A stretch of 33,413 bases of DNA, taken from the IMG/VR virus record IMGVR_UViG_3300038324_000011, positions 1 to 33,413 of that record; one strand, given 5' to 3'. The stretch comes from a virus. A model generated the notes under the pieces. It did no database searches and was not told the origin of the DNA. It worked only from the letters and a program-made list of their open reading frames with translations. This document shows, piece by piece, positions 5,752 to 33,413 of the stretch (position 1 is its first letter; each line of letters starts with the position of its first letter). The position numbers and the translations under genes were made by a program.

Positions 5752-5969
5752 TGCCTTTACCTAAACCAAGACCGGAGGAAGACCGGGAAAACTTCCTAGA
5801 GCGTTGCATGAGTAACGATGTAATGGTGACTGAATTTGAAAATGGTGACCAGCGTTTTGCTATTTGTAATGCTATCTATGGCGAGCGTGAAGAGGTATCA
5901 AGTGGCCATATGGACGATGAGCAAATGCGCCAGATTACACGGCTTTTACGCGAAATGCTGGATGAATGA
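5751..5969 (+). CDS. small conserved phage head-region protein
   Basis: A 72-residue protein starting on the A of the portal stop codon (TAATG). The N-terminal pattern PLPKPRPEEDRENFLERCMS, followed by V-x-E-F-x-x-x-D-Q-R-x-A-I-C, is a short cysteine-containing motif that I recall in many phage head-gene clusters, either as a separate gene or as part of protease or portal-region proteins. Its function is not known to me. The C-terminal 25 residues form an acidic helix. Two cysteines (residues 19 and 45) could be functional. It overlaps the next gene by 8 bases. Confidence 0.65.
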   Translation: MPLPKPRPEEDRENFLERCMSNDVMVTEFENGDQRFAICNAIYGEREEVSSGHMDDEQMRQITRLLREMLDE

Positions 5970-6558
5970 CTTTGTTATTCTTGGCGGTGGTCCTTCGCTG
6001 ACACAGGCGCAAGTTAACTACGTCAGGAATAAGGCCACAGTAATAGCTGTTAATGATACATACCGCCTTGCACCTTGGGCGGATTATCTTTTTTATGCGG
6101 ACTGGAAATGGTGGAAATGGTGGGGCGATGATGTGCTTAAAACATTCCCCGGAGCCATTTTAACTTTACGTGAAAATAGACAAAAACATGCTAGCTTTTA
6201 TTATCAGCCCGGACCGTTAGAAGGCTTATCAGAGTTCCCTTATATATCTACAGGCAAAAATTCCGGCTATATGGCTATTAATATAGCAGTTCAAAAGGGG
6301 GCAAGGCGGATAATTTTACTAGGCATTGATATGAAGGCGCAAGGTAAAAAGACTCACTGGTTTGGAGATCATAGGCAGCCAACGAGCTTATTTCAGGCTG
6401 AAGGTAAAAAGATGCTTCATTTGTATCGTGATAAGATGCTGCCTTACTTTGATACTCTTAGAGAGCCATTAAAGGAAAAAGGCGTTGAAGTTATAAATTG
6501 TTCTCCTGATTCCGATTTAGAAGTTTTCCCAAAAAGGATATTGTATGATGCTATATGA
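5962..6558 (+). CDS. DUF115/MptE-like Rossmann-fold protein
   Basis: A 198-residue protein starting at ATG 5962; the same frame is open upstream, but that part only shadows the previous gene. The N-terminus FVILGGGPSLT (residues 4-14) is a glycine-rich nucleotide-binding loop. Further on, VIAVNDTYRLAPWADYLFY, STGKNSGYMAINIAVQKGA and RIILLGIDM-x-HWFGDH match phage members of the DUF115/MptE-like group, related to Maf-type glycosyltransferases and pterin diphosphokinases. Such genes recur in phage structural regions. It may transfer a sugar or nucleotide-linked group to a virion or host component; no substrate can be inferred. It overlaps the sulfotransferase gene by 14 bases. Confidence 0.75.
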   Translation: MNDFVILGGGPSLTQAQVNYVRNKATVIAVNDTYRLAPWADYLFYADWKWWKWWGDDVLKTFPGAILTLRENRQKHASFYYQPGPLEGLSEFPYISTGKNSGYMAINIAVQKGARRIILLGIDMKAQGKKTHWFGDHRQPTSLFQAEGKKMLHLYRDKMLPYFDTLREPLKEKGVEVINCSPDSDLEVFPKRILYDAI

Positions 6559-28793: not shown

Positions 28794-28802
28794 TTTTACC
28801 TC

Positions 28803-28832
28803 TTTACAAGTGTGTTTCAATACGCATATATT
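28803..28832 (+). promoter_or_regulatory. rightward promoter for the GapR-like gene
   Basis: TTTACA (28803-28808), 18 bases, TATATT (28827-28832), 52 bases before the GapR-like ATG. Its -10 box overlaps that of the leftward promoter on the other strand, so the two directions cannot easily fire together. Confidence 0.55.
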
Positions 28833-28856
28833 ATGAGGGCTTTCATGAAATGTAAA
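28828..28856 (-). promoter_or_regulatory. leftward promoter P1 for the recombination operon
   Basis: On the minus strand TTTACA (plus 28856-28851), exactly 17 bases, TAATAT (plus 28833-28828). The spacer begins with the TTTCATGAAA palindrome. Transcription would start near 28821, about 28 bases before the erf start codon. Confidence 0.75.
28841..28850. promoter_or_regulatory. operator-like palindrome TTTCATGAAA, copy 2
   Basis: A perfect palindrome in the spacer of leftward promoter P1, immediately downstream of its -35 box, as in copy 1. Next to it, on the minus strand, is GCCCT just before the -10 box; the same GCCC precedes the -10 box of the two rightward promoters. Confidence 0.65.
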
Positions 28857-28883
28857 GCATAAATTTTAACCAAGGAGAAAAAA

Positions 28884-29117
28884 ATGATAGACGATACAGC
28901 GAAACAGAGATTAACCGCTTATATTGAAAAGATTGAACGGCTGGAAGAAGAAAAGGCCGGAATAGGTGAGGACATTAAGGAAGTGTATAACGAAGCTGGC
29001 AGCGTAGGTTTTGACAAAAAGATTATGCGGCAGGTTGTTAAAGCACGGAAGAAAAGCCGGGAGGAACTGACGGAAGAACAGGAGCTTCTGGATCTTTATC
29101 TTGAGGCAGTCACTTAA
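28884..29117 (+). CDS. GapR-like DNA-binding protein (DUF2312)
   Basis: A 77-residue protein with AAGGAG before the ATG. RLTAYIEKIERLEEEKAGIG, EDIKEVYNEAGSVGFDKKIM and RQVVKARKKSREELTEEQEL-LDLYLEAV follow the GapR/DUF2312 pattern almost completely. GapR is a small alphaproteobacterial chromosome-structuring protein that binds overtwisted AT-rich DNA ahead of polymerases and replication forks. A phage copy at the divergent early promoters could support phage replication or compete with the host protein (inference). It is a good host marker. Confidence 0.9.
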   Translation: MIDDTAKQRLTAYIEKIERLEEEKAGIGEDIKEVYNEAGSVGFDKKIMRQVVKARKKSREELTEEQELLDLYLEAVT

Positions 29118-29120
29118 GCC

Positions 29121-29149
29121 TTTACACAATGCCGGAGATTTAATAAATT
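29121..29149 (+). promoter_or_regulatory. possible promoter of the structured RNA
   Basis: TTTACA (29121-29126), 17 bases, TAAATT (29144-29149), beginning four bases after the GapR-like stop codon. Transcription would start near 29156, exactly at the first hairpin. The -10 match is only 4 of 6, so this is tentative; the RNA could instead be part of the GapR transcript. Confidence 0.4.
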
Positions 29150-29155
29150 ACAAAT

Positions 29156-29280
29156 GCGGGGGCTTATTGCCTTTGCGTTAAGATTAAGAATTGGGCTTGT
29201 TGCAGAAGCCCATTAAAGCTTCTTCAAAATGAGGTCCGGGTGCTGCAACCACTCGGGTCTCGTTTTGAGGAAGTTTTTTT
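29156..29280 (+). ncRNA. candidate structured RNA with three hairpins and complementary loops
   Basis: The region between the GapR-like and nuclease genes folds on the plus strand into three hairpins. H1: 29156-29163 with 29169-29176, 8 bp including three G-U pairs. H2: TGGGCTT 29192-29198 with AAGCCCA 29206-29212, loop GTTGCAG. H3: 29219-29242 with 29250-29273, 24 continuous pairs including five G-U, loop CTGCAAC 29243-29249. The H2 and H3 loops are exact reverse complements. H3 is followed by seven T and then the ATG of the nuclease gene, and its 3' arm contains the ribosome-binding site GAGGAAG (29267-29273). In the opposite strand the G-U pairs would be A-C mismatches. It could be a separate terminated RNA, an attenuator, or a translation switch. 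Confidence 0.6.
29219..29280 (+). terminator. long terminator-like hairpin burying the nuclease ribosome-binding site
   Basis: A 24-bp stem, much longer than normal terminators, closed by the loop CTGCAAC and followed by TTTTTTT (29274-29280). Up to four outer pairs with AAAG at 29215-29218 would consume part of the T run. Because the start codon follows at once, it would either stop transcription before the gene or block its translation. Confidence 0.65.
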
Positions 29281-29724
29281 ATGCCTAAAATTGTATTTAC
29301 GGAACAGGAATTAGAAGATTATTTATGCTCAGATGATAATTTGCAAAGACATCTTGGTCTTAGATTTGTAGGTAGGCAGGTTAGGACACAAGCTGGAATC
29401 ATCGACATATTAGCCTATACAAAAACACAAGAAAGATTTGTAATTATAGAGCTTAAAACTGGCCTTCTTGATAGCAAGGCATTTTTTCAGCTTGAAAGAT
29501 ATGTGCATTGCTTTGAATTTACTAAAGGCAGAGAGCCTTTTAGGCTTCTCGTTGGAAGTGAATTATCCGAAGATTTGCATTACAGCGTTCATTTATACAG
29601 AAAACGTTTTTGTGATCGTTTTACAAGCTATGCTTTGTATGGCTTTGATTTCGATACGCCAATTTCTTTTTGCTATTACAATATAAACCAGCAAAAGATA
29701 GAGAGAGGTACTTGCTATGATTAA
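29281..29724 (+). CDS. PD-(D/E)XK endonuclease, NucS/DUF91-like
   Basis: A 147-residue protein forming one restriction-like nuclease domain. Catalytic residues are Asp42 (AGIIDILA), Glu57 and Lys59 (FVIIELKTG), with a supporting Gln70 (KAFFQLERYV), the order seen in NucS/DUF91 nucleases. The DNA-binding N-terminal domain of NucS is absent. Its substrate may be branched or mismatched DNA in replication, or host DNA. The ATG directly follows a T7 run, and its ribosome-binding site GAGGAAG is locked in the hairpin before it, so expression seems tightly controlled, as expected for a dangerous nuclease. It overlaps the replication gene by 8 bases. Confidence 0.82.
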   Translation: MPKIVFTEQELEDYLCSDDNLQRHLGLRFVGRQVRTQAGIIDILAYTKTQERFVIIELKTGLLDSKAFFQLERYVHCFEFTKGREPFRLLVGSELSEDLHYSVHLYRKRFCDRFTSYALYGFDFDTPISFCYYNINQQKIERGTCYD

Positions 29725-30466
29725 AATTAAAGAATGGTCATCTTATCAGTCATATAAAGACCGTAAACCGCCGTGGATACGCTTACATAAAAGTATGTTG
29801 GATAATTACGAATATCACATGATGAGCGCAGAGGCCCGTGCTTTGCTTCCAATGCTATGGTTACTGGCCAGCGAAGATGATGATCCCGTATCGGGATTGA
29901 TACAAGATAGTTACGACAAGATAACATTTCGTCTTCGCATAGATAAAAAGGTTTTTGAAAAATGCCTTAAAGAAATCAATCAAGCAGGCTTTATAGAGAT
30001 AAGCCAAGATACTGATTTTAAAAAATGTAATCAATTTGTAACTGATCCGTTACAGGATAGTGGTCAATTCGTAACCCCAGAGACAGAGACAGAGACAGAG
30101 ACAGAGACAGAGACAGATATACGCGATGCTTTGAATGAATATAATTCTGTTGCTCAGGAAAACGGATTGCCAATAGCGCAGAAATTGACTTCTAAAAGAA
30201 AAATAGCCTTGCGAGCGAGGTTAAAGGATTCTGGGGGGATTGAAGGATGGAAACATGCAATGCAGAAATTAGAAAAAAGTGATTTTTGCACTGGCAAGAT
30301 TAATGGATTTAGGGCGGATTTAGATTTCGTCTTACAAGAAAAGTCATTTACTAAACTTATGGAGGGATCATATGACAACCGAACAGGAGGAACTAATGCA
30401 AAACCAACTCGACAACAAGACATCTACGAACAAGGGAAACGCTTGCTGGACAAATACGGAGGTTAG
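29717..30466 (+). CDS. phage replication initiator-like protein
   Basis: A 249-residue protein with two domains. Residues 1 to about 105 are a winged-helix-like domain of the kind found in phage replication proteins: KPPWIRLHKSMLDNYEYHMM, ALLPMLWLLASED, FRLRIDKKVFEKCLKEINQA-GFIEI. A linker of six Glu-Thr pairs (residues 122-133) follows. The C-terminal domain (about 135-235) has LTSKRKIALRARLKD, GWKHAMQKLEKSDFCTGKIN-GFRADLDFVL, which resembles the C-terminal domain of several phage replication initiators. It probably recognises the phage origin and recruits the host helicase. No origin iterons are seen in the gene; family name uncertain. Confidence 0.72.
   Translation: MIKIKEWSSYQSYKDRKPPWIRLHKSMLDNYEYHMMSAEARALLPMLWLLASEDDDPVSGLIQDSYDKITFRLRIDKKVFEKCLKEINQAGFIEISQDTDFKKCNQFVTDPLQDSGQFVTPETETETETETETDIRDALNEYNSVAQENGLPIAQKLTSKRKIALRARLKDSGGIEGWKHAMQKLEKSDFCTGKINGFRADLDFVLQEKSFTKLMEGSYDNRTGGTNAKPTRQQDIYEQGKRLLDKYGG
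30080..30115 (+). repeat. GAGACA hexanucleotide repeat, six copies
   Basis: Six perfect copies of GAGACA in the replication gene, coding for the Glu-Thr linker. Units of six keep the frame, so copy number changes alter only linker length. Confidence 0.95.
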
Positions 30467-32046: not shown

Positions 32047-32143
32047 TCCAGACAGATTTCGCATATGGCTATTAGCCATGATTATGCATGATGCAATACA
32101 AATGCCTGCAAATGATGATGAGCCAATGAGATGTGTAAAATGA
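32036..32143 (+). CDS. very small hypothetical protein
   Basis: A 35-residue ORF from ATG 32036 to TGA 32143 with a perfect GGAGG six bases upstream. It contains FRIWLLAMIMHDAIQM, perhaps a short amphipathic or membrane helix. Its TGA overlaps the ATG of the resolvase gene (ATGA), so it may serve mainly to couple translation. Confidence 0.5.
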   Translation: MIINPDRFRIWLLAMIMHDAIQMPANDDEPMRCVK

Positions 32144-32583
32144 AAATACTTTCTCTGGATCTTGGCAGTATAACCGGATGGGCTATGAACTCAGACGGAA
32201 TTCATGGCGGAGTGCTAAATTTAAAAGGCGGCAGATACGAAGGCGGGGGGATGCGATTCTTGCGCTTTAGGCAATGGCTGGATGCGCTCCCGGTAATTCC
32301 CGAGGTAATTGTATACGAGGAAGTTAGACGCCATATGGGGACAGATGCGGCCCATATATACGGAGGACTGCAAGGCCAGCTAACAGCATGGGCGGAAGAA
32401 CGCAAGATTCCGTATGAGGGTATCCCAGTTGGCACGATAAAGAAATTCATTACAGGTAAAGGCAATGCGGGAAAGAAAGAAGTGATCGCCGGAGTTGAAA
32501 AAAAAGGCTTCGCGCCTGAAGATGATAACCACGCGGATGCGCTGGCATTGCTGCTTTATAAGATGAACTACACTGATTTATAA
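32140..32583 (+). CDS. RuvC-like Holliday junction resolvase
   Basis: A 147-residue nuclease with RNase H fold, from ATG 32140 (in-frame ATG 32131 is possible but has no ribosome-binding site). Catalytic residues: Asp7 in LSLDLGSITGWA, Glu60/61 in VIVYEEVRR, and Asp129/Asp133 in EDDNHADALAL. GIPVGTIKKFITGKGNAGK corresponds to the basic strand-binding loop. It would cut branched DNA produced in recombination or replication so that packaging can proceed; the substrate may be less specific than for host RuvC. Followed directly by promoter B. Confidence 0.88.
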   Translation: MKILSLDLGSITGWAMNSDGIHGGVLNLKGGRYEGGGMRFLRFRQWLDALPVIPEVIVYEEVRRHMGTDAAHIYGGLQGQLTAWAEERKIPYEGIPVGTIKKFITGKGNAGKKEVIAGVEKKGFAPEDDNHADALALLLYKMNYTDL

Positions 32584-33256: not shown

Positions 33257-33413
33257 AAGTCACCGAGACTGGCTGAATAGTGTAAAAGGGGGCCAAAGAG
33301 CCAACCTTTGGGACGCCGACCTACGAAACGCCGACCTTGAGGGAGCCAACCTTGAGGACGCCGACCTTGAGGGAGCCAACCTTGAGGACGCCGACCTTGA
33401 GGGAGCCAACCTT
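33234..33413 (+). CDS. pentapeptide-repeat protein, cut by window end
   Basis: An incomplete gene of at least 60 residues from ATG 33234 (or 33231) behind GGAGA. After an N-terminal helix (MDIQAILKSHRDWLNSVKG) come A-(D/N)-L-x-x pentapeptides: RANLW, DADLR, NADLE, GANLE, DADLE and so on to the window edge. Such repeats fold into a right-handed beta helix; some members mimic DNA and protect gyrase, but no function can be assigned here. The repeats are nearly identical at DNA level. Confidence 0.88.
   Translation, partial: MDIQAILKSHRDWLNSVKGGQRANLWDADLRNADLEGANLEDADLEGANLEDADLEGANL
33330..33413 (+). repeat. 30-bp perfect tandem repeat in the pentapeptide gene
   Basis: A 30-base unit at 33330-33359 is repeated perfectly at 33360-33389 and again, cut off after 24 bases, at 33390-33413. 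Each unit encodes two pentapeptides. Identity at synonymous sites indicates recent duplication. Confidence 0.95.

Follow-up and report, generated by a model that had tools for sequence, protein, structure and literature searches.

What is the role of the strongly folded RNA encoded between two early genes of a tailed phage? The question is raised by the virus record IMGVR_UViG_3300038324_000011, analyzed here as a single stretch of 33.4 kb (hereafter the window) in which terminase, portal, major head, tape measure and tail-fibre genes are all present. Gam-like and Erf-like genes, recognized by PHROGs matches, lie in a leftward block at approximately 27.2-28.8 kb, and a rightward early operon opens with a GapR-like (DUF2312) gene on the plus strand (28884-29117; Pfam GapR_DNA-bd, E = 1.2e-27). 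Between the end of this gene at 29117 and the start of a nuclease gene at 29281 there are 163 bases without an assigned gene, and these hold the RNA element. Because the GapR-like proteins in our phage collection come mostly from alphaproteobacterial phages, the host is probably an alphaproteobacterium. Elsewhere in the window, an ORF at 1206-2414 encodes a DNA methyltransferase fused to a ParB-like domain, and another, located between the portal and major head genes (5836-6558), matches an alpha-2,3-sialyltransferase PHROG (E = 1.3e-41).

The predicted fold of positions 29140-29290 consists of exactly three hairpins, with a minimum free energy (MFE) of -63.6 kcal/mol. Dinucleotide shuffles of the same segment reached -36.7 +/- 3.8 kcal/mol, and none of the 200 was as good as the native sequence (z = -7.09). 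All three hairpins are read on the plus strand. Hairpin 1 (H1, 29153-29163/29169-29179) comprises 11 bp, including 4 G-U pairs, and the loop TTATT (-14.2 kcal/mol). Hairpin 2 (H2, 29192-29198/29206-29212) comprises 7 bp without any G-U and the loop GTTGCAG at 29199-29205 (-10.1 kcal/mol). Hairpin 3 (H3, 29215-29242/29250-29277) is much the largest, with 28 bp, including 6 G-U pairs, and the loop CTGCAAC at 29243-29249 (-37.0 kcal/mol). A run of seven T residues (T7, 29274-29280, plus strand) lies directly 5' of the start codon and was matched by our scan for terminator-like elements. H3 is the strongest 70-nt fold of the whole window on both strands. Among the hairpins that abut a T run and a start codon in approximately 1.3 Mb of retrieved phage and related sequence, it is likewise the strongest. 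Read on the plus strand, all ten wobbles in H1 and H3 are G-U, and the reverse complement of the element folds to only -35.7 kcal/mol; plus-strand RNA is therefore the relevant molecule, and its structure is real and strong.

These results agree with a first-pass annotation made from the letters of this DNA, which had described three consecutive hairpins followed by T7, a structure kept as plus-strand RNA and a terminator-like element ahead of a nuclease gene, the last now borne out by T7, the scan match and a Pfam NucS_C domain downstream. Two of its details depended on where the stems were taken to end. Its G-U counts, three in the first stem and five in the third, came from slightly shorter stems than the full ones, which hold 4 and 6, and its 6-nt gap between H2 and H3 is correct when H3 is counted without its A-U/G-U foot, whereas the full fold leaves 2 nt. 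The annotation also knew of no named RNA family with such a layout and, consistently, no Rfam family matched the element at the gathering level; a loose limit recovered microRNA-precursor families only, far under their gathering scores. An origin of H2 and H3 by hairpin duplication was rejected, as the stems outside the loops are unlike each other when judged by eye, and so was a competing AGAAGC:GCTTCT hairpin at 29204-29223, which reaches merely -5.9 kcal/mol. Strong folding was also seen in the tandem repeats at 33290-33413, which encode a pentapeptide-repeat-like protein and run past the window end; these folds are coding-derived. In another phage with a DnaD-like gene (L159, position 7358, minus strand) we noted a 17-bp terminator-like hairpin with TTTTTATAATG running into a 115-aa ORF.

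The gene that follows the element (29281-29724, plus strand) encodes a stand-alone NucS-C-like PD-(D/E)XK nuclease of 147 aa, recognized by Pfam NucS_C at 33.3 bits (cutoff 24). Its match to NCBIfam NucS is at the domain level, under the equivalog cutoff, and that to the solved NucS 2vld is weak (E = 0.054). The start of the gene is fixed at 29281, since its frame contains a TGA at 29266-29268, beyond which no start codon occurs before 29281. The corresponding Shine-Dalgarno, GAGGAAG (29267-29273, plus strand), forms part of the H3 3' arm, where it pairs with CTTCTTC at 29219-29225 in a stable RNA helix, and T7 fills all the space from it to the ATG. For transcripts starting at 28870, 29100, 29156, 29192 or 29215, the predicted mean unpaired probability of the Shine-Dalgarno is 0.001. 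Removal of the H3 5' arm raises the predicted value to 0.17-0.19, and blocking the pairing stretch 29219-29225 alone raises it to 0.46. Of the 55 starts of window genes that were compared, that of the nuclease has the least accessible Shine-Dalgarno (0.007, against 0.113 for the next and a median of 0.44). This burial of the Shine-Dalgarno in H3 is the main point that the first-pass annotation missed, and it offers a simpler and well-precedented function for the element.

We regard it as probable, with clear reservations, that H3 is a terminator-like hairpin that also occludes the ribosome-binding site (RBS), and hence a cis-acting barrier to expression of the NucS-type nuclease. With the Shine-Dalgarno in the 3' arm and the T run reaching the AUG, RNA coming from the GapR-like gene should either terminate at H3 or read through with its RBS locked inside the 28-bp helix, and synthesis of the nuclease would depend on a bypass of the hairpin. 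The bypass might be a transcript starting inside the H3 5' arm, the situation in T4 gene e and I-TevI, or else RNase III cleavage, antitermination or a bound factor. A scan confined to sigma-70-like promoters found none within the H3 5' arm that would free the RBS. The barrier may reach further than the nuclease. The next gene (29717-30466, plus strand) encodes a DnaD-like replication initiator or helicase loader, as indicated by PHROGs replication-protein and DnaD-like matches (best E = 1.2e-18), and its start overlaps the nuclease stop codon (29717-29724). It is probably co-regulated with the nuclease, perhaps through this stop/start overlap, and the lock may therefore also affect replication.

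H3 has the stem-loop and immediate T run of an intrinsic terminator, although its stem is longer than usual. Taken at 24-28 bp, it is long enough to count against the combined reading as terminator and lock. H3 might instead be a plain terminator of the GapR-like gene, which it directly follows, its overlap with the Shine-Dalgarno then reflecting a compact genome and the nuclease being poorly expressed or translated from read-through RNA. T7 after a strong stem and the terminator-like scan match would fit such an arrangement. However, a short stem would suffice for termination and H3 has 28 bp, the Shine-Dalgarno within the stem stands at normal spacing, and the start is by far the least accessible in the window. 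We therefore consider a plain terminator rather unlikely.

The length of H3 raises another option. RNase III processing sites occur in the lambda N leader and in the early RNA of phage T7, and here a continuous helix of more than two turns stands directly before a start codon. If the element were such a site, a cut in the long duplex would expose or stabilise the nuclease mRNA. Yet a cut in the middle of the stem would leave the Shine-Dalgarno paired with approximately 10 bp of the 5' arm, and no lambda-N-like gene was identified, and we consider such a processing site unlikely.

Occlusion by H3 is not without parallels. Hairpins that occlude the Shine-Dalgarno or AUG have been described for T4 e, soc, 49 and I-TevI, have been shown for mobE, a stand-alone endonuclease gene of phage Aeh1, and have been implicated for T4 segB (PMC3014915). 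As in T4 e, soc, 49 and I-TevI and in Aeh1 mobE, several of which are endonuclease genes, the Shine-Dalgarno of this phage gene is concealed by a helix (PMC3014915). In contrast to the T4-type leader hairpins, the present helix is also terminator-like, with T7 running up to the AUG, and is preceded by two further hairpins. The protein moreover belongs to the NucS-C/PD-(D/E)XK type, the phage is not T4-like and no sigma-70-like promoter was recognized in the 5' arm.

Other known systems resemble the locus in layout. In the guanidine-II riboswitch (mini-ykkC), neighbouring hairpins upstream of the Shine-Dalgarno carry ACGR tetraloops that kiss through two G-C pairs (PMC9300104). Two neighbouring hairpins with complementary loops are likewise found upstream of a Shine-Dalgarno in this phage, but their loops are of 7 nt (GTTGCAG and CTGCAAC), contain no ACGR and have no Rfam match, and we rejected the assignment. 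Type III toxin-antitoxin loci such as ToxIN consist, in order, of a structured RNA, a Rho-independent terminator and a nuclease gene (PMC5086642). The same succession of structured RNA, terminator-like hairpin and nuclease gene is seen here. This assignment was also rejected: no tandem repeats are present in 28800-29300, and the protein matches Pfam NucS_C and none of the ToxN types (ToxN/AbiQ/CptN/TenpN).

The feature that first drew attention to the element was the match between loops 2 and 3. As the first-pass annotation had stated, GTTGCAG (29199-29205) and CTGCAAC (29243-29249) are exact reverse complements (7/7), and its estimate of about one in 16,000 for two random loops was right: a 7-nt complement arises between random loops with a frequency of 6.75e-5 per pair. 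Given 133 neighbouring hairpin pairs on the plus strand of the window, approximately 0.009 such matches would be expected, and this is the only 7-nt loop match among 1,500 neighbouring hairpin pairs in the approximately 1.3 Mb of sequence. Because many windows were read, the match is suggestive but not conclusive. The annotation had made a kissing loop the defining feature of the element while regarding pairing in cis as geometrically tight. The second view holds and the first is not supported. By a simple A-form estimate, the coaxial stack formed with a complete H3 would span approximately 118 A, against a linker reach of approximately 18 A, and on this model full formation of H3 makes kissing in cis sterically impossible. 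The same estimate indicates that for the loops to meet in cis, approximately 12 or more of the lower base pairs of H3 would have to be open; otherwise they would have to meet in trans.

One possibility in trans is that the element is an RNA of approximately 125 nt with its own promoter and a T7 terminator, in which intermolecular pairing of loops 2 and 3 yields a dimer or engages an antisense-like partner. Apart from the rarity of the loop match, what speaks for it is a weak sigma-70-like promoter match upstream (TTTACA-17-TAAATT, 29121-29149, plus strand; 9 of 12 positions), from which RNA would start at approximately 29156, at H1. The promoter scan, however, found 34 sigma-70-like sites in all, barely more than the 26.7 expected from shuffles, and this match is indistinguishable from chance. 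The expected 0.009 loop pairs refer to the plus strand of this one window and would rise if the other windows read were counted, no relatives and hence no covariation were found, and cis pairing is impossible with a complete H3. A free-standing kissing RNA therefore seems quite improbable to us. We give equally little credence to the broader idea that, in an early-operon RNA, the loops decide, by pairing in trans or for a short time as the RNA is transcribed, whether the combined terminator and RBS lock forms, and thereby control the nuclease and the replication gene.

The same complementarity also yields an ordinary nested helix, GTTGCAG:CTGCAAC, which in our calculations beats keeping H2 by 0.7-3.5 kcal/mol, but only while the exposed RNA ends at 29249-29255. 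The element could thus be an attenuator in which this helix competes with H2 and the top of H3 as the RNA is being made, and a factor acting on H2 could prevent formation of the terminator and RBS lock. The interval is short. From 29256 on H2 and H3 win, by a margin of more than 6 kcal/mol at 29264, and if the 5' arm of H2 is blocked, H3 has not yet formed at 29258 but is present from 29264 on. No stable riboswitch-like alternative state is therefore predicted. H2 is, moreover, likewise not intact at this stage in 13% of random loop sequences, and attenuation of this kind appears very doubtful. The loop complementarity may reflect a brief folding intermediate, a role between molecules or a coincidence. 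Nothing that we found shows the loops touching, and a kissing loop, unproven as it is, is not needed to explain the anatomy of the element.

For H1 and H2 themselves one precedent was considered. The put RNAs of phage HK022 are approximately 70 nt long, form two stem-loops and stand upstream of early-gene terminators (PMC9378689). H1 and H2 together span 60 nt and are also two stem-loops ahead of a terminator-like hairpin in an early operon, a similarity confined to general layout (PMC9378689). Were they a put-like antitermination RNA, polymerase would pass H3 as well as terminators further along the early operon. The H1 and H2 stems are, in contrast to put, spaced 12 nt apart and match no Rfam family, and we find this possibility highly improbable. 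A leader peptide was rejected as well, for lack of a well-placed Shine-Dalgarno and because an open frame of such length is unremarkable. The frame of the GapR-like gene does remain open for 32 codons past its TAA (29115-29216), with an ATG at 29154 and a TAA at 29214-29216 that sits at the foot of H3, where a terminating ribosome would disturb the RBS lock; this open frame is probably due to chance. We assign no secure role to H1 and H2.

Relatives that could have informed these alternatives are scarce. DNA searches in phages returned no relative of the RNA element and a pattern search for the loop pair in viral contigs returned nothing. No relative of the nuclease was found in viral contigs, genome contigs, phages or 22 related virus records, nor any homologue of it at 80 GapR-like phage loci; distant NucS-like relatives on plasmids are larger proteins. 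The terminase has one relative (58% identity), in a sequence of 62.6% GC that is without the nuclease, and in L146 and L147, which carry relatives of the DnaD-like gene, the nuclease position is occupied by other genes. The RuvC-like resolvase (32131-32583), unlike most of the early region, does have relatives: viral contigs contain 55 related loci, and a 152-bp segment shares 69% DNA identity with a Candidatus Megaera plasmid. As the searches returned neither a homologue of the element nor one of the nuclease in this setting, function has no support from conservation or covariation, and this lack of relatives is the main limit of our case.

Overall, the element probably represents translational control of a kind ordinary in phages, accompanied by an unexplained loop match. 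If H3 is rightly read as a terminator-like RBS lock, a mode of control by hairpins that for phage endonuclease genes is familiar chiefly from the T4 type would be extended to an unrelated phage, whose host is probably an alphaproteobacterium, and to a nuclease of the NucS type, a single stem combining termination with RBS occlusion. The replication gene of this early operon would, in addition, stand behind a gate.
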